Of a stretch of 64,000 nt of DNA, positions 35,464 through 57,703 are shown piece by piece. Position numbers and translations under genes: made by a program. Under the pieces are notes generated by a model. The model saw nothing but the letters and a program-made list of their open reading frames with translations. It searched no databases and was not told the origin of the DNA. The stretch comes from Bacillota bacterium. Its GTDB lineage: Bacteria; Bacillota; Desulfotomaculia; Desulfotomaculales; Pelotomaculaceae. The stretch covers positions 62,001 to 126,000 of the forward strand of contig JAKPTB010000080.1 in NCBI GenBank assembly GCA_029555205.1, in the 5' to 3' direction. Every line of letters starts with the position of its first letter. Within the stretch, counting starts at the first letter, position 1.

Positions 35464-36414
35464 CTAAGGAACGGCCGGGCATTCTTCCGGTGCCTTGTCC
35501 CAGCGGATGCCCCTGTAAACGGGATGCCGGAGGCAGCCCTCCCGGGTTGTGGTCAGATAGTCAAGGGAGCAGACTAAAAGGGGACGAACCCAATGGGTAC
35601 GCTTTTTTTCCGGCAGGGGGATTTCTAATGGCGCAACGGGCGTTTCGATCTTACGCAGACCCTCCAGGAGGGCGGCGGCCTCAGCTTCATTGAAACCCGT
35701 GCCCACTTTACCCTGGTAGATCAGTTTTCCCTCCCGGTACCCTCCTAAAACAAGAGAGCCAAGATTTCTCCCGGAGGCGCCGGCCTGGTAACCGCAGATG
35801 ACCAGTTCAGCCTCCAGGGTGTGCCTGAATTTTTGCCAGTAAATAGAGCGCCGGCCCGGAAGGTAAACGCTGTCGAGTTTTTTGGCGACAACTCCTTCCA
35901 GTCCCCGGGATACGCAGGCATCGTAGAAACTGCGGCCGTTCTGCAGGATAAAATCCGGAACAATAATTTCAGCCCCGGGGTTGACCATTTCTGCCAGGAG
36001 CGTTTTACGTTCCCTGAGGGGGTGTTCCATGACGTTTTTTCCATCGGCATATAAAACATCAAAGGCTACGTAAACAGCCGGGCTTTCTACAGAGACCCGG
36101 CTGATTCTCTGGGGATTATTTAATCTGCCCCGGGCTTGGAGCCGGGCAAAGGAGGGTTTTCCTTTTTCAAAGACCACAATTTCGCCGTCCAAAATAGCCG
36201 GTTTCCTTGCTACCTTTTGGTGTAGACGGCCCAGTTCCGGAAACTTTCCGGTCAGGTCAAGCAAGTTGCGGGACCTTAAGGCTGTGTTCCCGTCAAGATA
36301 AAGGAGACCCCGGTAGCCGTCCCATTTTATTTCAAAGAGATGCAGGTCGCTGTCGAAGGGAAGAGAGTTAACGGCCAGCATCGGGCGAATTAGGGGTAAA
36401 GGCTCCTGTCCCAA
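35464..36414 (-). CDS. ATP-dependent DNA ligase (LigD ligase part)
   Basis: The 316-residue ligase has the adenylated lysine K30 in motif I EIKWDGYRG, motif III-like YVAFDVLY, EGVVAKK (motif IV), and a C-terminal OB-fold ending near HPVYRGIRW. It seals double-strand breaks with Ku. TTG start with GGAGG 9 nt upstream; 15 bp downstream of ku. No 3'-phosphoesterase domain is encoded here, and ligase and polymerase are separate, unlike the fused LigD of many bacteria. Confidence 0.93.
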   Translation of the reverse strand: MGQEPLPLIRPMLAVNSLPFDSDLHLFEIKWDGYRGLLYLDGNTALRSRNLLDLTGKFPELGRLHQKVARKPAILDGEIVVFEKGKPSFARLQARGRLNNPQRISRVSVESPAVYVAFDVLYADGKNVMEHPLRERKTLLAEMVNPGAEIIVPDFILQNGRSFYDACVSRGLEGVVAKKLDSVYLPGRRSIYWQKFRHTLEAELVICGYQAGASGRNLGSLVLGGYREGKLIYQGKVGTGFNEAEAAALLEGLRKIETPVAPLEIPLPEKKRTHWVRPLLVCSLDYLTTTREGCLRHPVYRGIRWDKAPEECPAVP

Positions 36415-36429
36415 TTTTATTGGCCTCCG

Positions 36430-37272
36430 TTATGATGTTTTGCGCCGCCCGGCTCTCTTTACTGCAGGGGTTTCAGTTTTTGATCCCGCCGGCCTGCCCC
36501 GTTCCTCCCGGGCCAGATCAATGCTGGCTTTCAGGGCTTCCATCAGGTCAACAACTTTTCCCGCTTCTGGTTTGGCCGGAGCAGCTGTTTCTTCCCCGGC
36601 TATCTTTGCCTGGATTATTTCCATCAGACCCTGCCTATAGGTATCGCTATACTTTTCAGGTTGGAAATTCGACGAGAGACTGTTGATTAGATTGACGGCC
36701 ATCTTTAACTCGTTCTCCTGCAGGTTGACGTTGTAATTCAGTTCCGGCAGGACATTTGCCTGCCTTATCTCGTCGGGGAAATGCATTGTGCTTAAGACAA
36801 GTGTATTTCCGCTTGCCCTGATGGCCGCCAGGGCTTCGCGGCTGCGGATGATAACCCTGGCCACGGCTACCTTGCCTGTCTCAGACATAGCCTGTTTTAA
36901 CAATTCATAGACTCTGGCGCCCCCGTCCCCGGGGGCGAGGTAATAAGCCTTTTCGTAATAAACTGGATCAATTTCGGTCAGATCCACAAAATCCAGGATT
37001 TCTATATTCTTGCCTCCAGCAGTTGCCGGTTTCCCGAAGTCTTCCTCCTGCAAGACTATATATTTACCCTTTTCATATTCATAACCCCGGACAATTTCGT
37101 CCATAGGAACCTCTGTCTCGCAATAAGGACAGAAGCGCCTGTACTGTACCGGTGTTTTGCATTTTTCATGCAGATAATTAAAGCGAATATCCTTTTTTTC
37201 AGTAGCTGCGTATAGTTTCACAGGTACAAAGACCAGGCCGAAGCTGACTGCACCTTTCCATAAAGGCCTCAT
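36430..37272 (-). CDS. ku: End-binding protein Ku
   Basis: The homodimeric Ku ring binds DNA ends and recruits LigD. The 280 residues begin MRPLWKGAVSFGLV, with the Ku core to about 225, followed by a short basic tail rich in Lys and Arg that is typical of bacterial Ku. Two ATG codons are close together; GGAGG favours the second (7-nt spacing). It is the first gene of the end-joining operon. Confidence 0.95.
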   Translation of the reverse strand: MRPLWKGAVSFGLVFVPVKLYAATEKKDIRFNYLHEKCKTPVQYRRFCPYCETEVPMDEIVRGYEYEKGKYIVLQEEDFGKPATAGGKNIEILDFVDLTEIDPVYYEKAYYLAPGDGGARVYELLKQAMSETGKVAVARVIIRSREALAAIRASGNTLVLSTMHFPDEIRQANVLPELNYNVNLQENELKMAVNLINSLSSNFQPEKYSDTYRQGLMEIIQAKIAGEETAAPAKPEAGKVVDLMEALKASIDLAREERGRPAGSKTETPAVKRAGRRKTS

Positions 37273-37438
37273 GCTCATTCCTCCCTCATTTTTTTATTAT
37301 CCCCGCGGCCGGGCAACTGATTCAATTAAGGCCTGTCCGGAGCAGGGCAAATTTTCACCAGGGGGAATCGCCTGTTTATTATAAGATAACAAATAACCCA
37401 CCGGGGGCTTAAAGGACCGCAACAGCGTTTAAATAAAT

Positions 37439-37464
37439 AACCCGGGTAGATTAAGACCCGGGTT
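37439..37464 (-). terminator. Terminator after ytfJ
   Basis: AACCCGGGT and ACCCGGGTT form a perfect 9-bp stem with an 8-nt loop. On the minus strand a T-rich tail follows (TTATTTATTT). It lies about 75 bp past the ytfJ stop and insulates the ku operon. The rest of the 37273-37540 gap shows no gene. Confidence 0.75.
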
Positions 37465-37540
37465 TTGCTGGACCTTTTTGATGTTAAAGTTTTTAAGGCA
37501 GTGCCTGCCATTCCCTTCAGGCCGGCCTGCCCGGGCCCTG

Positions 37541-37999
37541 TCAGGGCGCTGGGGGAGCAGCGTTTGGCGGGGCTTGGGTTGAAACATGAACACTTGTACC
37601 CGGAGGGTAGGCTTCCCTTTTGAGCATTGACTGAATCTGGCTTAGAAGTTGCGGTGCCAGATCAATAATACGGTCTGCCAGCGCGTTTCCATCCACCGGC
37701 AGCATTCTTACCTGCCCGTTACCAACTACCAAAAACCCAATGGGTTTTACTGATACCCCACCCCCGCTACCGCCGCCGAAGGCGGGCATTTGATCCTCCG
37801 CCTGGCCTTCTTTGCCTTCCCCGGATACCTCAAATTCACCCCCTCCGGCAGCAAAGCCGCAGGCAACACGGGAGACAGGGATGATCACGGTCCCGTCCGG
37901 AGTTTCCACCGGATCTCCTACCACCGTATTCACATCGACCATTTCTTTAATACTTTCCATAGCAGTTTTCATTAAACCTTCAATGGGATGTTCGGGCAT
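37541..37999 (-). CDS. ytfJ: Sporulation protein YtfJ (GerW family)
   Basis: GerW/YtfJ is a forespore protein needed for proper germination in Bacillus. The 152 residues match the family: MKTAMESIKEMVDVNTVVGDP-type N-terminus, PVSRVACGFAAGGGEF core and a Gly-rich middle, with PIGFLVVGNGQVRMLPV after it. The tail is rich in Pro and Ala. GGAG is 8 nt before the ATG. It follows ytfI, the order known in Bacillus. Confidence 0.92.
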   Translation of the reverse strand: MPEHPIEGLMKTAMESIKEMVDVNTVVGDPVETPDGTVIIPVSRVACGFAAGGGEFEVSGEGKEGQAEDQMPAFGGGSGGGVSVKPIGFLVVGNGQVRMLPVDGNALADRIIDLAPQLLSQIQSMLKREAYPPGTSVHVSTQAPPNAAPPAP

Positions 38000-38155
38000 T
38001 TATGTCACTCCTTCACCCTGTCCGTTTAATCTTAATTTATCCTGAGAAATATTTAAATATACGAACAAACTGGTATTAACCCCGGCAGTTCCTGCGTCCT
38101 TCAAATAGTCTTCAAGTAAGCCGGCTGTTCTCAAGCCGGGTGTTCGTTTTCCATT

Positions 38156-38842
38156 TTAATTCCGGATTTTCAAAACAATTGCTTTTAACCCGGTACAAAA
38201 CAGGTAACCAAGCCGGAACTCGAGAATGCAGTCAATGCTGACATTAAAACAAGCCCTTTCAAAGGACGGCCTGATTGTCAGATGTGGTTGTACTCCGCCG
38301 GGGGCAAGTAAGGCGTAGAAATAAGACAATAAAGAACCCTTTATTCCCCACAGAGCCCCTGTCAGAACCCCTGTCCGGTCCGGTTCACCGGTACCCAACT
38401 CGGTATGCCAGTCCAGGCGGTGCAGGTGGGTTCTCCCGAGAAGATAGTACAGGGCCGGCTTGTAACGCCGATAGAGGTTAATCTGTTTAATTAATACCCC
38501 CATCATCCGGACTGGACCGGGAAGAGGGATTTTCTTTTTTTCTTCAAGAACCGGCCTGCCATCCTTTCCTTCAAGTTGAGCCCTGATCTTAAAGGCAGGC
38601 CTTAACACGCGCCGGACCAGGCGTCCGGCTCCAGGTGCTTTTGCTCTGAACTCCGGCCTTTTTATTTTGATGAATGGTATTTCGAATCTGGAGCCAAGCA
38701 GGCCACCCCAGAGAAACAATTCCACAGCGAACTCGTCATCCCGGCCCTTCCTGCGGTAACGCAGCCGCAGCCTAATCCGGGACAGGGATAGTATAAGCAA
38801 TAATACTGTAAGAAGAACAATCACCAGGTACAGCCTGCTCAC
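38156..38842 (-). CDS. ytfI: DUF2953 membrane-anchored protein (YtfI-like)
   Basis: The 228-residue DUF2953 protein has an N-terminal membrane segment (LVIVLLTVLLLILSL) and then a basic, mostly beta-type body. Function is unknown; it is linked to sporulation through its partner ytfJ. The start is a GTG with GGGG before it. Confidence 0.75.
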   Translation of the reverse strand: MSRLYLVIVLLTVLLLILSLSRIRLRLRYRRKGRDDEFAVELFLWGGLLGSRFEIPFIKIKRPEFRAKAPGAGRLVRRVLRPAFKIRAQLEGKDGRPVLEEKKKIPLPGPVRMMGVLIKQINLYRRYKPALYYLLGRTHLHRLDWHTELGTGEPDRTGVLTGALWGIKGSLLSYFYALLAPGGVQPHLTIRPSFERACFNVSIDCILEFRLGYLFCTGLKAIVLKIRN

Positions 38843-38915
38843 CTAACCCCACCTCTGCATTATTTTTCCACTCTTCAACTATCCTATACCATCCTGGCCC
38901 CTTTTCCAAATGACG

Positions 38916-38943
38916 TTGCTAAAACGGACTGAAACCATATAAT
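38916..38943 (+). promoter_or_regulatory. Promoter-like pair upstream of the STAS gene
   Basis: TTGCTA (38916-38921) and TATAAT (38938-38943) are separated by 16 bp. The -10 box lies inside a small palindrome, CCATA-TAA-TATGG (38935-38947), that could bind a regulator. The predicted transcript start would be about 200 bp before the STAS gene. Confidence 0.5.
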
Positions 38944-38962
38944 ATGGACTATTGAGTAATCT

Positions 38963-39008
38963 GGTGCCCTACCTGCGGTGGGGCGGTAGATCCGGCTGGC
39001 ACCTTTTT
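38963..39008 (+). promoter_or_regulatory. Attenuator-like hairpin in the STAS leader
   Basis: GGTGCC (38963-38968) and GGCACC (38998-39003) close a structure that contains a second stem CTACC/GGTAG (38969-38973, 38985-38989) and is followed by TTTTT. It begins about 13 nt after the expected transcript start. Transcription could therefore stop early unless the structure is changed. I could not match it to a riboswitch class. It is also the main content of the 38843-39149 gap. Confidence 0.5.
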
Positions 39009-39149
39009 CATGATTGATACAGGGCCGTCCAAAAAATATTCTCATAGAGACGGGAGATTGCAGGATATTCCCTTTTGACCAGGAATACTATTTATTGCTA
39101 TCAATTGGCTTTAAAGTTTAATGATTCTGCAGAATTCAGAGGTGAAAGC

Positions 39150-39461
39150 ATGGAGCTAACATGGACAGATAAAAATGGAAAAATTATTGTCAGCTTATTT
39201 GAACGAATTGACAGCAACACTTCTCCATCATTGGAAAAAGATTTGAATGAGCTGCTTGCTCAGGGATATAGGTCAATTGTTCTTGATTTCATGAAAACGT
39301 CCTATGTCAGTAGTGCTGGTTTGCGGGTCTTTCTGGGGGTGGCCAAAAAGCTGCTTGGGAGTGGAAAGCTGCAACTTATTAACCTTAACAGTAATGTATA
39401 TAAGGTTTTCAAACTTACCGGCTTCACCACCATTTTTGATATCCTGCCTTATTCTGGTTAG
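39150..39461 (+). CDS. STAS-domain protein (anti-sigma-factor-antagonist type)
   Basis: The 103-residue single-domain STAS protein is related to SpoIIAA/RsbV. The phosphorylation-loop region is YVSSAGLRVFL; S55 aligns with the phosphorylated Ser of SpoIIAA (the preceding Asp is replaced by Ser). An ATG with GAGGTG 6 nt upstream gives this length; the frame is open 25 codons further without a ribosome-binding site. It is followed after 14 bp by the metallo-beta-lactamase/kinase-like gene, with which it very likely works. No sigma factor gene is next to it. Confidence 0.85.
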   Translation: MELTWTDKNGKIIVSLFERIDSNTSPSLEKDLNELLAQGYRSIVLDFMKTSYVSSAGLRVFLGVAKKLLGSGKLQLINLNSNVYKVFKLTGFTTIFDILPYSG

Positions 39462-39475
39462 TTAAGGAGATTGTG

Positions 39476-41197
39476 ATGCTGAAAGATAAGAAATGGCAAA
39501 ATATTCCAGGAGCCTTGCAGGCGGATATTTTTCCGGTGCTTCGCAAGCCCGATGTTATTTGTTCCAACTCCTATATCATCAGAACCCCGCAAAAGATAGT
39601 GATTATAGACCCCGGTTCACTACCGGAACAAATGGCGTTGTTGAAAGAGGCTTTAAGGGAGGATTTAAATCAGCAGATTAGACCCATTTATATTTTTTTT
39701 ACACACTGCCATGTTGACCATTGCTACCAGGCCCTGATCGTCAACGAGCTGTCTAAAGTTACCCGGGTATTTCTGGCAGCTCAGGAAAACGGTGTTTCAG
39801 CTCTCCGGAACAGGGATTTGCGGCGGACTGCAGCCGCTTTTCACCGCAAAGAGTTGCCCGTCACAGAGATAGATATTGAACTCCTGTCCAATGAGGATAA
39901 ACTTCACTGCGGAGAAAAGGAACTGATTCTCGCCGGTGGGAACCGTTTACTTATCTTGACTGATTTGTATCCCCTCAAAGAAGGCAGGGTGTTCCCCCGT
40001 CAGAAGATCTCTATCAGTGAAAAGGACGTAATGGAGATTTTTCATACACCGGGGCATAGTGCCGACAGCATTTGCCTTATGATCGGGGATGTTCTTTTCC
40101 TCGGTGACCTGACCTTTGCCGGAAACAGCGGCATCGCCGGCATATCCGGCTGGAATCAAAAGGACCTGGTTAATACTCTGGAAGGCCTGATCGATTTAAT
40201 TAATGAGCGCCGGATCGGGCTAATCTGTCCCGGCCACGGCTGGCTTATTCCGGGAGATAAAGCTGTTGCAATTCTGCAAAAACAGCTTCGTATAGCCGGT
40301 AACCTGACCAATATCCGGGAATGGGATCTGGCGGCGTTCCGGGAGGTTTCCCAGTACGCCCTTGAAATGCTAGCTGATGTCAATGATATGGTCGCAATAA
40401 TAGCAGGCCGCCTGTATTACCTGGCTTATTATCTGGAGGAACTGGGCGAGCCCGCAGAGGCCCAGAAATACCGGGAGTTTATTAGTCTGGAGGCCATTGA
40501 AGAGCTGCTGGACGAGTACGACAACTGTGCCAGTGCTCTGCAAAGGGGTGAAATATATGACAATATCATGGTGCTGAAAACAACCCGGTTGCTGGAGAAG
40601 ATACAGGCACTTTTGAATGAGGGAAAACTGGAATTGATTATGGACAAGTATTTCATGAGGAGGGCAAACCGCCTTTTCTCTGACTTTTTTATCGTATCCA
40701 GTGGACGGTTCCTTGATATAACCCTGACCAACGGCAACATTAATGACTTGCTGGGAGAACTCCTGGCCGAGATTAAAAAGAAACAGTATAATGAAGATTA
40801 TATTTTTGAGGTTCTCGATGATGATGAGCTCTACTTGGAAGCACTGTCCACACGGATTGCCTTTCAACCAGTCCTGCAGGAAGTAAAATGGAGCTTCAAC
40901 CCGGGAGATGTGGCCCCGGTAAGGTTGAATCCCGAAAGGTTTGCAGAGGCTTATACCGGATTGCTGGAGGATATCGCCAGTCTTGAAGTGCCTGATTTAA
41001 GGATTGCCACTGTCCTTCAGGAGCAGGGGGTCGTGGTCCGGACCGACAGCATTAACGGCATCCCTGAAGGAGTATTCAACGAAAAAAGATTCAACGCCCA
41101 CCGGCGTAGAATTGAATTGGCGGGGGGACAGCTTCAAAAAGTAACCGGCGGTGGAAAGGTCCGGTTTGATATTACCTTTTCTGCAGCTGCCCGGTAA
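39476..41197 (+). CDS. Metallo-beta-lactamase-fold protein with helical linker and degenerate HATPase-like C-terminus
   Basis: This 573-residue protein has an N-terminal metallo-hydrolase domain with full metal motifs: THCHVDH (H77, H79, D81, H82), TPGHS (H194), LGD (D211) and PGHG (H254). A helical region spans about 265-400. The last 130 residues look like a worn histidine-kinase ATPase domain: an N-box-like LNPERFAEAYTGLLEDI (N485), DSINGIP (524-530), and GGGKVRFDITF at the end. This is my reading of weak motifs. Start at ATG with AAGGAG 6 nt upstream. It forms an operon with the STAS gene and ends at a terminator. Substrate unknown; a sensor acting on the STAS partner is a reasonable guess. 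Confidence 0.75.
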   Translation: MLKDKKWQNIPGALQADIFPVLRKPDVICSNSYIIRTPQKIVIIDPGSLPEQMALLKEALREDLNQQIRPIYIFFTHCHVDHCYQALIVNELSKVTRVFLAAQENGVSALRNRDLRRTAAAFHRKELPVTEIDIELLSNEDKLHCGEKELILAGGNRLLILTDLYPLKEGRVFPRQKISISEKDVMEIFHTPGHSADSICLMIGDVLFLGDLTFAGNSGIAGISGWNQKDLVNTLEGLIDLINERRIGLICPGHGWLIPGDKAVAILQKQLRIAGNLTNIREWDLAAFREVSQYALEMLADVNDMVAIIAGRLYYLAYYLEELGEPAEAQKYREFISLEAIEELLDEYDNCASALQRGEIYDNIMVLKTTRLLEKIQALLNEGKLELIMDKYFMRRANRLFSDFFIVSSGRFLDITLTNGNINDLLGELLAEIKKKQYNEDYIFEVLDDDELYLEALSTRIAFQPVLQEVKWSFNPGDVAPVRLNPERFAEAYTGLLEDIASLEVPDLRIATVLQEQGVVVRTDSINGIPEGVFNEKRFNAHRRRIELAGGQLQKVTGGGKVRFDITFSAAAR

Positions 41198-41282: not shown

Positions 41283-41323
41283 AAAAAACACCTGTTGAGA
41301 GATTAATTCGACAGGTATTTTTT
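41283..41323 (+). terminator. Terminator after the metallo-beta-lactamase-fold gene
   Basis: AAAAAA-C-ACCTGT (41283-41295) pairs with ACAGGT-A-TTTTTT (41311-41323) with one mismatch and a 15-nt loop, ending in a T-run. It ends the STAS operon. Confidence 0.75.
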
Positions 41324-41353
41324 GTGTATTCTTTTCATGGAATTTATAATATA

Positions 41354-41382: not shown

Positions 41383-41462
41383 ACATCTTAATTGGAGGTA
41401 TATAAGTCTTAAAAGAAGTACTTTCATGACCTTAATGCCTTAAGAAAGGAATGGTTATAATT

Positions 41463-41801
41463 GTGAAAGTAGATAAAGAGCTTTCAAAAGGCAGCCATGA
41501 AATTATTATACTAAAAATGCTTAGTCGAAAAGATATGTATGGTTATCAGTTAATACAAGAGATGGAGATGCTAACTGATGGCGTTTTTAGTATGAGTCAG
41601 GGTAGCCTTTACCCGTTATTGCATTTGTTAGAGAAACGAAAGTTAATCGATTCTTATGAAAAAATGTGCGAAGGCAGAAAGCGCCGTTACTATCGCTTGA
41701 CGAACGAAGGTAAGGCCGCCCTGTTGGTAAAAGAAAAAGAATGGGATAAATTTACAAAGGCAGTGAGACGAGTATTGGAGGGGCCGGCTTATGAGGTTTG
41801 A
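41463..41801 (+). CDS. PadR-family transcriptional regulator
   Basis: The 112-residue winged-helix protein has the PadR pattern: KGSHEIIILKMLSRKDMYGYQL, then GSLYPLLHLLEKRKLI and RRYYRLTNEGKAAL. PadR proteins usually repress nearby membrane or efflux genes. The frame opens at an ATG (41451) that directly abuts the ribosome-binding site. The GTG at 41463 gives the typical KVDKEL N-terminus and is preferred. It overlaps the next gene by 11 nt. Confidence 0.9.
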   Translation: MKVDKELSKGSHEIIILKMLSRKDMYGYQLIQEMEMLTDGVFSMSQGSLYPLLHLLEKRKLIDSYEKMCEGRKRRYYRLTNEGKAALLVKEKEWDKFTKAVRRVLEGPAYEV

Positions 41802-42084
41802 TTGGATGGATGAATATGCTGAATTTGTTCTCTGTGAAATTAAAAACCCTAAATATGCTGAACGTGTAAAGGATGAAATTGTTATACACTTGCAGGATTT
41901 ATATGCTGATTTACTAAAACAAGGTTTGGATCAGAAAGCTGCGCAAGCGCTATCAATACAGAACATGGGGGATTTGAAAGATTTACAAAGACAATATAAA
42001 CAAGCTTCCAGATTTATTGGTGTTCGGTTAAGCCATAAATATACCATTAGTAGACAAATGTGGCTAAGTATCCCTGGAAATTAG
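41791..42084 (+). pseudogene. Permease-prefix-domain protein, probably truncated by the IS
   Basis: These 97 residues show the helical permease prefix (HAAS/DUF1700-like) domain that follows PadR genes in Firmicutes, with a YAERVKDEIVIHLQDLYADL core and an AQALSIQNMGD segment. Such proteins normally continue into membrane segments. Here the frame stops soon after the prefix, about 100 bp before the transposase gene. A membrane-protein fragment appears on the other side of the IS, which suggests one gene split by insertion. The last 20 residues may be IS-derived. Confidence 0.6.
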
Positions 42085-42135
42085 GTTACGAAAAATATCG
42101 AAATTGCTCTATATGAAGAAGGAACAGAACCCTAT

Positions 42136-42183
42136 CATTGTGGAATTCTTCTCCAAATACCTTTATGAGGGGGTTCCACATTG
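42136..42183 (+). promoter_or_regulatory. Fold-back hairpin over the transposase start
   Basis: CATTGTGGAA (42136-42145) and TTCCACATTG (42174-42183) pair at 9 of 10 positions. The right arm contains the TTG start codon and the loop contains the GAGGGGG ribosome-binding site. In a read-through transcript this would hide the start. Similar hairpins limit transposase synthesis in several IS elements. Confidence 0.55.
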
Positions 42184-43560
42184 GCATCAATTCCTAAAAA
42201 TATCAAACCACATGAAATAGAAAACGTCCTGAACAAAATGTTCTCCCCAGAATGGCTTAGAGACACCGCAACCAAAGTCGGCTTTATCCAGCGCAACCGG
42301 AAAATCGACCCGGTCACCTTTTTTTGGGTTGTAGTGCTCGGCTTTGGAGTTGGGATGCAACGCACCCTCGCCTCCTTAAGAAGGGCTTACGAGGCCGCGT
42401 CAGCTGAAACACTCGTGCCATCTTCTTTTTATGACCGCTTCAGTAACGGACTGGTTGCCTTTCTTAAAGAATGTTTGGCACACGGGATCGCAGAGCTTTC
42501 CAGGCACACCAGTCTCTCGCTTTCAGATAAACTAAAGGGATTCAAGGACCTGGTAGTTTCAGACGGTTCAATTATCAGGCTACACGATAAACTAGCCGAA
42601 GAATTCCCAGGAGCAAGGGGCAAGGCCGAACTCAAAATCCATGTTGCTACGGGGATCACTAGCAATACCAAGACCATTGCCATTTATTCCGGCAAAACCG
42701 CCGAAGTCAAGACTATGCGCATCGGGCCTTGGGTGAAGGACAACATTCTTCTATTTGACCTCGGATACTTCAAGTATGAACTATTTAGCAAAATTAGAGA
42801 CAACGGCGGCTACTTTGTAAGCAGGCTTAAAAAATCTGCCAACCCTACCATAGTTTCCGTAGTGCACTCTCACCGGGATGAAACAAGCGACCTTGCTGAC
42901 AAAAAGCTTAAGGATATACTCCCCCAACTGAAGCAGGAAGTAATCGACGTCGAGGTAGAGATCTCCTTCAAAGGAAACGCATCTAAAAACAAAAAAGCCA
43001 AAAAAGAAGATTCGTTCGAGATCTATAATCCCAGGGGCAACGCGCCTAAGGTTAAAGAGACATTCCGGCTAGTAGGAATAATAGATAAGGAAACCAAGAA
43101 ATACCATTTCTATCTCACCAAAATCAGCCCGGAAAAGCTTACGGCAGAAGACGTGGCGCTACTATACAGGGCACGCTGGAGTGTGGAGCTTCTTTTCAAG
43201 GAATTAAAAAGCCTTTATAAGTTGGATGTAATTTCCAGCGGGTCGCCTGCCGTAGTGGAGTCACTGGTGCTGGTGGCCATGCTAACCCTGGTAGTAAGCC
43301 ATCGACTGCTGAACCATATGCGACTTCTGATTCCGGAGAAAAGCTCCCGTTTTACCCCTCTGCGCTGGGCAGAGTCGTTTTACGCTATTGCACCGGTTAT
43401 TATGGGGCGTGTACTCAAACTTGCCGGCATTAATGATGACCCGCTTCAGCTTATTATTTACTTTATGAGCGAGGGTATTGATCCTAACGTCAACAGGGAA
43501 CGACTGTTGTCACCCTGGGTAAAAGCTGCTAATTCCCAGGGACTAATTACCAATAGTTAA
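42181..43560 (+). CDS. IS4-family transposase
   Basis: The 459-residue DDE transposase shows the first Asp in VVSDGS (about residue 122), the second in LFDLGYF, and the Glu in the C-terminal YRARWSVELLFKELKSLY, the Y-R-E-K signature of IS4. It looks intact. A stretch rich in Lys and Asn (KGNASKNKKAKKE) lies in the insertion region between the second Asp and the Glu. TTG start with GAGGGGG upstream. Confidence 0.92.
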   Translation: MASIPKNIKPHEIENVLNKMFSPEWLRDTATKVGFIQRNRKIDPVTFFWVVVLGFGVGMQRTLASLRRAYEAASAETLVPSSFYDRFSNGLVAFLKECLAHGIAELSRHTSLSLSDKLKGFKDLVVSDGSIIRLHDKLAEEFPGARGKAELKIHVATGITSNTKTIAIYSGKTAEVKTMRIGPWVKDNILLFDLGYFKYELFSKIRDNGGYFVSRLKKSANPTIVSVVHSHRDETSDLADKKLKDILPQLKQEVIDVEVEISFKGNASKNKKAKKEDSFEIYNPRGNAPKVKETFRLVGIIDKETKKYHFYLTKISPEKLTAEDVALLYRARWSVELLFKELKSLYKLDVISSGSPAVVESLVLVAMLTLVVSHRLLNHMRLLIPEKSSRFTPLRWAESFYAIAPVIMGRVLKLAGINDDPLQLIIYFMSEGIDPNVNRERLLSPWVKAANSQGLITNS

Positions 43561-56105: not shown

Positions 56106-56886
56106 AACCATTTTCCATTAAGGACTTGATTTTAATCAGGGCCTGTCTTTCCAGACGGGATACTTGAACCTGGGAAAGCCCCAATTTGGCCGCGATAACC
56201 GACTGAGTTTTATCCTCAAAGAAACGCCAGATAATTATTAACCGGTCCCTCTCCGGGAGTTTTTGCAGGATCTCATTGATCGAGATGCTTTCCAGCCACG
56301 GAAGATCTCCATCCTCTTCACCTTTAAGCTGATCCAGGAGATAAATGGGGTCGCCATCGTCCTGATGAAGAGTTTCATAGATAGAAGTGGGTGCCTGGGC
56401 AGCTTCCAGGGCATTCACCACTTCCTCCCGGTTCAGGGAGAGTTCTGCAGCGATCTCCCCCACGGATGGTTCCCTGCCTAGCCGCGCCGTCAGGATTTCC
56501 CGGACCTGCTGAATTTTATATGCAAGTTCCTTCACCGAGCGGCTGACCTTCACCGGGTTATCATCCCTTAAAAATCTCCGGATCTCGCCCACGATCATCG
56601 GCACGGCGTAAGTTGAAAACTTTACGTCATAATTAAGGTCAAATTTATCAATGGCCTTCATCAAACCAATACAGCCTATCTGGAAGAGATCTTCCAGCTC
56701 ATAACCGCGGTTTTGAAACCGTTTAACAAGATTGAACACCAGCTTTAAGTTGCAGTTAACCAGCTTATCCCTGGCCAGAGTATCTCCCGCCTTGGCCTTT
56801 TTCAGCAGTTCTTTGATTTCGGGATCCTTCAACAGGGGAAAGCGGGGCAGGTTCATGTCAACCAACCTGCTGCTCATTTTTTTCAT
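56104..56886 (-). CDS. sigF: Forespore sigma factor SigF
   Basis: The 260-residue sigma-70 family protein contains region 2 (NLVKRFQNRGYELEDLFQIG, near 50-70), region 3 and region 4 with a helix-turn-helix (QSVIAAKLGLSQVQVSRLER). Order after spoIIAA and spoIIAB identifies sigma F, the first forespore-specific sigma. The start used is the first ATG (MKKMSSR); the fourth residue is also Met. spoIIAB ends 7 bp upstream. Confidence 0.96.
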   Translation of the reverse strand: MKKMSSRLVDMNLPRFPLLKDPEIKELLKKAKAGDTLARDKLVNCNLKLVFNLVKRFQNRGYELEDLFQIGCIGLMKAIDKFDLNYDVKFSTYAVPMIVGEIRRFLRDDNPVKVSRSVKELAYKIQQVREILTARLGREPSVGEIAAELSLNREEVVNALEAAQAPTSIYETLHQDDGDPIYLLDQLKGEEDGDLPWLESISINEILQKLPERDRLIIIWRFFEDKTQSVIAAKLGLSQVQVSRLERQALIKIKSLMENG

Positions 56887-56893
56887 CTCCTGA

Positions 56894-57343
56894 CTACTGC
56901 TCCCGATTAATGGGCGCCGTTCCGGAGCCGGCCCGCTTGCTCATGATGATTTTTGTCCCCTGTCCGGGGGTTGAGTCCACCTGGAAGCTGTCCATAAAAG
57001 ACTGGATAAACACAAAGCCCAGGCCGAGGCGTTCGGAGTCTGTGGAAAATGCCGGCTCAAGGGCTTTATTGATATCTTTAATGCCCTTGCCTTCGTCTTC
57101 TATTCTTAATTCCAGGCTGTCAGTGGTTAAAGCGGCCTGGATTCTGATTAACCTGTCTGGAAGATTCCCGTAACCATGAATGATGGAATTGCCCACCGCT
57201 TCGGAAACAGCCACTTTGATTTCCTCCAGGTCGGAAAGGGTAAAGTCAAGCTGGGAGGCAAAAGCCGCCACCGTTACCCTGGCGAAAGCTACATTGGCCG
57301 GAATGCTTAAAAATTCCAGTTTCATCTGGTTAATATATTTCAC
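56894..57343 (-). CDS. spoIIAB: Anti-sigma F factor SpoIIAB
   Basis: SpoIIAB is a serine kinase that holds sigma F and phosphorylates SpoIIAA. The 149 residues show the HATPase motifs: EAVGNSIIHGYG (N box), EDEGKGI (G1) and GLGFVFIQSFMD (G2). GTG start with GGAGG 8 nt upstream, directly joined to the spoIIAA stop (TAAGTG). Confidence 0.96.
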   Translation of the reverse strand: MKYINQMKLEFLSIPANVAFARVTVAAFASQLDFTLSDLEEIKVAVSEAVGNSIIHGYGNLPDRLIRIQAALTTDSLELRIEDEGKGIKDINKALEPAFSTDSERLGLGFVFIQSFMDSFQVDSTPGQGTKIIMSKRAGSGTAPINREQ

Positions 57344-57703
57344 TTAAAGCCCCTCCCTAACCGGTTTCACCATTGCTTCGGACTCGCTTGATAATTCATC
57401 CATAATCCTGAAGAGCCCGGACAATTCTAAAATTCTGCGCACCTGGGGTTGGGGAGAAACAAGCATAACTTTACCGCCGTTTTTTGACACCCGCTTGTAG
57501 CGGCCCAGCAGGACTCCCAGGCCGGAACTGTCGATAAAACTCACCCCGGCCAGGTTGATAACCAGGTTTCTGACCGGTTCCCGGTCCAGGGCCTGCTCAA
57601 GGGCGTTGCGAAGATGTTCGGCAGCGCCAAGATCCAGTTCGCCCCTTAGCCTGATGAAGAGTGTTTCCTGCTTTCTTTCAAGATCCAAGAGCACAGGCGT
57701 CAT
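57344..57703 (-). CDS. spoIIAA: Anti-anti-sigma factor SpoIIAA
   Basis: The 119-residue STAS protein has the phosphorylation loop FIDSSGLGVLLGRYK; S59 aligns with the phosphorylated Ser. Unphosphorylated SpoIIAA frees sigma F after septation. ATG with AAGGAAAGG just upstream. First gene of the operon, with a promoter 38 bp upstream. Confidence 0.96.
   Translation of the reverse strand: MTPVLLDLERKQETLFIRLRGELDLGAAEHLRNALEQALDREPVRNLVINLAGVSFIDSSGLGVLLGRYKRVSKNGGKVMLVSPQPQVRRILELSGLFRIMDELSSESEAMVKPVREGL

Follow-up and report, generated by a model that had tools for sequence, protein, structure and literature searches.

A putative metallo-beta-lactamase hydrolase and pseudo-histidine-kinase fusion encoded beside an orphan STAS gene in a Bacillota genome

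The two genes at 39150-41197 are read here, with a probability of about 0.5, as an operon encoding an orphan STAS protein and a fusion of a metallo-beta-lactamase (MBL) hydrolase to a pseudo-histidine-kinase. We propose the following scenario to explain this operon. The first gene would encode an orphan STAS antagonist, and the second a GloB-like metal hydrolase carrying a histidine-kinase core that has lost its phosphotransfer and ATP-lid chemistry. If the core has been retained, it would be as a scaffold for dimerisation and protein docking, and the pseudokinase may dimerise and couple the hydrolase to a partner. The operon, located between DUF2953 and trpS, would be decaying in some members of the genus. 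The joining of an enzyme domain to a pseudo-histidine-kinase, which is catalytically dead as judged by its sequence, is a rare and new domain combination, and no report of an MBL-pseudo-histidine-kinase fusion was found in the open-access literature. The features on which the scenario is built are as follows.

39150..39461, + strand: STAS protein of the anti-sigma-factor-antagonist family, 103 aa (Pfam, NCBIfam, PDB relatives)
39476..41197, + strand: fusion protein, 573 aa, with MBL hydrolase, helical linker and degenerate histidine-kinase core (ORF, Pfam)
39476..40261, + strand: GloB-like MBL domain, residues 1-262 (Pfam; NCBIfam GSH_gloB, weak; PDB 7ev5/7l0b)
40400..40450, + strand: most conserved linker motif, IAGRLYYLAYYLEELGE, residues 309-325, helical and faintly TPR-like, partly kept in a distant homologue
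40628..41194, + strand: degenerate histidine-kinase core, residues 385-573 (hhalign, fold search)
41290..41325, + strand: hairpin resembling an intrinsic terminator at the end of the two-gene unit, a 10-bp stem followed by TTTTTT

The gene pair and its setting

The window, that is, the whole stretch of 64,000 nucleotides that was analysed, belongs to contig C145 in a draft assembly (173 contigs, 97.9% complete, 8.5% contamination), and synteny with Pelotomaculum MAGs shows that it is part of the genus's own DNA and not a contaminant. The STAS gene starts at ATG 39150, and 14 bp separate its stop from the start of the fusion gene, for which ATG 39476 is the best start and GTG 39473 an alternative; a ribosome-binding-like AGGAG stands immediately 5' of the fusion gene, which stops at 41197. 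The 308-bp gap upstream of this tight pair holds promoter-like hexamers in a number close to chance. A PadR-type regulator gene and a DDE transposase gene occupy 41451-43560, between the fusion gene and trpS; the segment is absent from both congeners and is thus probably a later insertion. On the minus strand of the same window, spoIIAA, spoIIAB and sigF are clustered at ~56300-57700, ~15 kb from the pair, and the statement of the earlier note that no sigma factor lies nearby is thus contradicted.

The STAS protein matched Pfam STAS PF01740 (E=1.1e-13, 51.3 bits against a cut-off of 22.6) and passed NCBIfam ant_ant_sig TIGR00377 (60.0 against 53.45 bits), its PDB relatives being 4hyl, 6m36 and 1sbo. 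The putative phospho-acceptor Ser55 is present within YVSSAGL, as had been claimed before. The MBL domain of the fusion protein matched Lactamase_B (E=4.1e-14, 53.4 bits against the Pfam cut-off of 22.7) and carries the motifs THCHVDH (76-82), TPGHS (191-195), GDLTF (210-214) and PGHG (252-255). All seven metal ligands that had been named, H77, H79, D81, H82, H194, D211 and H254, were found, and all seven are also kept in a homologue from another class (G409) with 34% identity across the MBL domain, suggesting that the metal site is active. The analysis gave no support to the suggestion that the MBL domain ties the pair to a second-messenger or redox signal. In the linker, TPR-type Pfam matches were weak and sub-threshold.

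Kinase type and catalytic state of the C-terminus

Neither Pfam nor NCBIfam gave a match above cut-off beyond residue 262 of the fusion, and a PDB sequence search with the C-terminus returned a best E of about 0.6 (CpxA), which is not significant. The C-terminal 300 residues of the window fusion, two congeners and the G409 homologue were therefore considered as an alignment, which was compared with five histidine kinases of the window genome. In hhalign, this comparison scored 45.8 at a probability of 85%, against at most 21.7 across 40 column shuffles and 15.6 for the reversed alignment. As a single sequence, the fusion C-terminus ranked first among 39 window ORFs in the histidine-kinase comparison, with 35.6 against 20.6 for the next; true histidine kinases scored >260, indicating that the C-terminus is a remote and degenerate member. 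The distant G409 homologue on its own gave no clear histidine-kinase match, and the alignments of the C-terminus are shallow because the family is rare.

The fold model of the full-length fusion was uninformative (mean pLDDT 38), and that of residues 385-573 had a mean pLDDT of 45, reaching ~79 in blocks near the C-terminus. The latter model has the alpha-beta-beta-alpha-beta-beta order of a CA domain, and the 50 PDB matches listed for it were all histidine kinases or degenerate relatives, including DesK, HK853, VanS, AdeS, RetS and DivL. With a model of such low confidence, the outcome of the fold search is supporting evidence only. Together with the profile comparison, it bears out the description of an MBL domain joined through helices to a worn kinase-like C-terminus. 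The likeness to DHp-CA is remote, coming from profile and fold searches and lying below any curated family cut-off.

The type of kinase proposed earlier did not hold. A remnant of a SpoIIAB/RsbW partner-switching kinase would fit the neighbouring STAS gene and the Bergerat-like order of motifs that can be read by eye in the translation; however, hhalign gave the C-terminus a probability of only 0.13-0.25% against SpoIIAB/RsbW of the genome, whereas histidine kinases matched RsbW at 90%. A family search of the genome listed no match at the pair locus, and a HATPase_c_2-type sequence with N, G1 and G2 boxes was not found there. A SpoIIAB/RsbW-type C-terminus was thus rejected on profile comparison (0.13%, against 85% for histidine kinases, with a clear match that includes the second helix of DHp), and descent from such a kinase is highly improbable.

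The core contains RRANRLFSDFF, resembling the second DHp helix, and a CA-like part; the first DHp helix is assigned with less certainty. Where histidine kinases have the N-box NLIRNA, the aligned sequence reads GLLEDI, the G1 motif DxGxG is reduced to DSING (DSINGI), and the lid and G2 box are missing. H542 is the sole His after residue 254, with none in 255-541, so the helical part has no acceptor His. The combination of acceptor His with N, G1 and G2 boxes that marks a histidine kinase is thus lacking, and phosphotransfer by the fusion protein appears very unlikely.

Distribution, disruption and history of the pair

Three of the 113 genomes of the order carry the fusion, all of them in one genus. 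In a sample of 398 genomes from the phylum, a single further homologue was found, in G409, and 98 genomes of its class contained no other. Searches of plasmids, viral contigs and PADLOC gave nothing for the fusion, and a marginal match in G112 proved to be an ABC transporter. In G409 (L014 8252-9987), the MBL part and the kinase-like part are encoded in two separate frames that overlap near a stretch of seven A, a kind of site prone to sequencing error or slippage. No STAS gene lies upstream of this homologue or within about 8 kb of it, the STAS genes of that genome being far off.

Only in this genus does the pair stand between DUF2953 and trpS. The sister genera examined lack it at this locus, their trpS adjoining DUF2953 and ytfJ or being close to them; most simply, then, the pair entered here in an ancestor of the three genomes. 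The adjacency thus recurs beyond the window genome; since all three pairs share one locus, however, it represents a single origin. In both other congeners the fusion frame is disrupted and the STAS gene whole: the MBL frame of G086 is cut by a TGA ahead of the PGHG motif, and that of G087 has an 8-bp deletion through TPGHS, with PGHS lost. In both copies the C-terminal frames are still open, and as these relatives are MAGs the disruptions could be assembly errors.

Between the window genome (G000) and G086, the longer distance, dN/dS of the fusion was 0.24; between G000 and G087, the closest copies, it was 0.50 overall and 0.97 in the linker, values based on few changes. For the STAS gene, dN/dS was 0.30-0.38. 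Selection on the fusion was thus purifying, as indicated by the value of 0.24, and may have relaxed recently. Furthermore, dS between G000 and G087 was 0.05 in the fusion and 0.34 in the STAS gene. Across 35464-41197, the same two genomes differed by a dS of 0.03-0.05 in the fusion, Ku and LigD genes and of 0.15-0.34 in neighbouring genes. Such sharp differences between neighbouring genes of one genome pair suggest a mosaic formed by recombination.

The pair may instead have been acquired recently and now be decaying without any function, the fusion gene being intact in the window only by chance. The independent disruptions in two of three congeners, the raised dN/dS between the closest copies and the absence of the pair from the sister genera at this locus are all in line with such decay, but the lower dN/dS over the longer distance, the metal ligands kept both here and in another class and the C-terminal frames left open in copies that may themselves contain assembly errors argue against it, and we consider it rather improbable. 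The narrow and decaying distribution argues against a broad importance of the fusion.

STAS partners, meaning and comparison with known systems

Within the order, most relatives of the STAS gene adjoin genes for RsbU/RsbW-type proteins. One of them, on contig C97 of the same genome (L032 702-2847), stands beside a gene for a 592-aa protein that combines membrane helices, an RsbU/SpoIIE phosphatase and an RsbW-type kinase, and similar pairs recur across the order. The window STAS protein is 45% identical to the C97 STAS protein and forms its own long branch in the STAS tree (support 100/99). It may be an orphan using the C97 protein, or its partner may have changed. Phosphorylation in trans by the RsbU-RsbW fusion would be more likely than by its neighbour.

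A true STAS-control module, as the earlier note had it, would require that the MBL-pseudokinase binds the STAS protein and releases or sequesters it in response to the MBL domain's substrate or metal state, in place of the usual RsbW kinase and PP2C phosphatase. The tight operon with 14 bp between the genes and a terminator behind, the pair remaining together in all three congeners that carry it, and the long supported STAS branch expected after a change of partner are consistent with this idea, and the adjacency itself stands. It is nevertheless doubtful: the distant homologue has no STAS gene within about 8 kb, the STAS gene is intact in two genomes with a broken fusion frame, and the C-terminus is unlike the STAS-binding types of known systems. 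As the two genes come apart in this way, an obligate module is disfavoured, though functional coupling of the fusion with the STAS protein is possible. That the pair is a new signalling unit, with the metal hydrolase domain governing the STAS switch protein by way of a dead histidine-kinase scaffold and without phosphorylation, is, in our estimate, distinctly unlikely; if the hydrolase did signal through the scaffold, a phosphorylation-free route into STAS control would exist. In the preferred reading of an MBL-pseudo-histidine-kinase fusion beside an orphan STAS gene, the joining of an enzyme to a dead transmitter core would be an unusual use of such a core.

Like SpoIIAA/RsbV-type antagonists, the window protein belongs to the STAS family and has Ser55 in an SSAGL motif, but neither an RsbW-type kinase nor a PP2C phosphatase nor a sigma factor is encoded next to it. 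The layout of a partner-switching module, in which the STAS gene adjoins genes for a kinase and for a phosphatase or sigma factor, was not found at the locus; spoIIA lies ~15 kb away and the RsbU-RsbW fusion is on C97. The ODP-family MBL-fold oxygen sensors (PF19583) share the MBL fold and a possible signalling context with the fusion, but the match was sub-threshold (12.5 bits against a cut-off of 27.2) and the ligand motif is HxHxDH, of the hydrolase type. Flavodiiron-like proteins have the ligand motif HxExDH. With the DHp-CA cores of histidine kinases (DesK, HK853; degenerate RetS, DivL), the fusion shares a remote profile similarity and the predicted order of secondary-structure elements, but it differs in having no acceptor His, in the change of the N-box Asn to Asp and of DxGxG to DSING, and in the loss of the lid and G2 box. 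The GloB-like/Lactamase_B hydrolases (PDB 7ev5, 7l0b) have in common with it the HxHxDH...H...D...H set and the TPGHS, GDxxF and GHG motifs, whereas the fusion additionally has a spacer of ~100 residues between motifs and a C-terminal extension of 310 residues.
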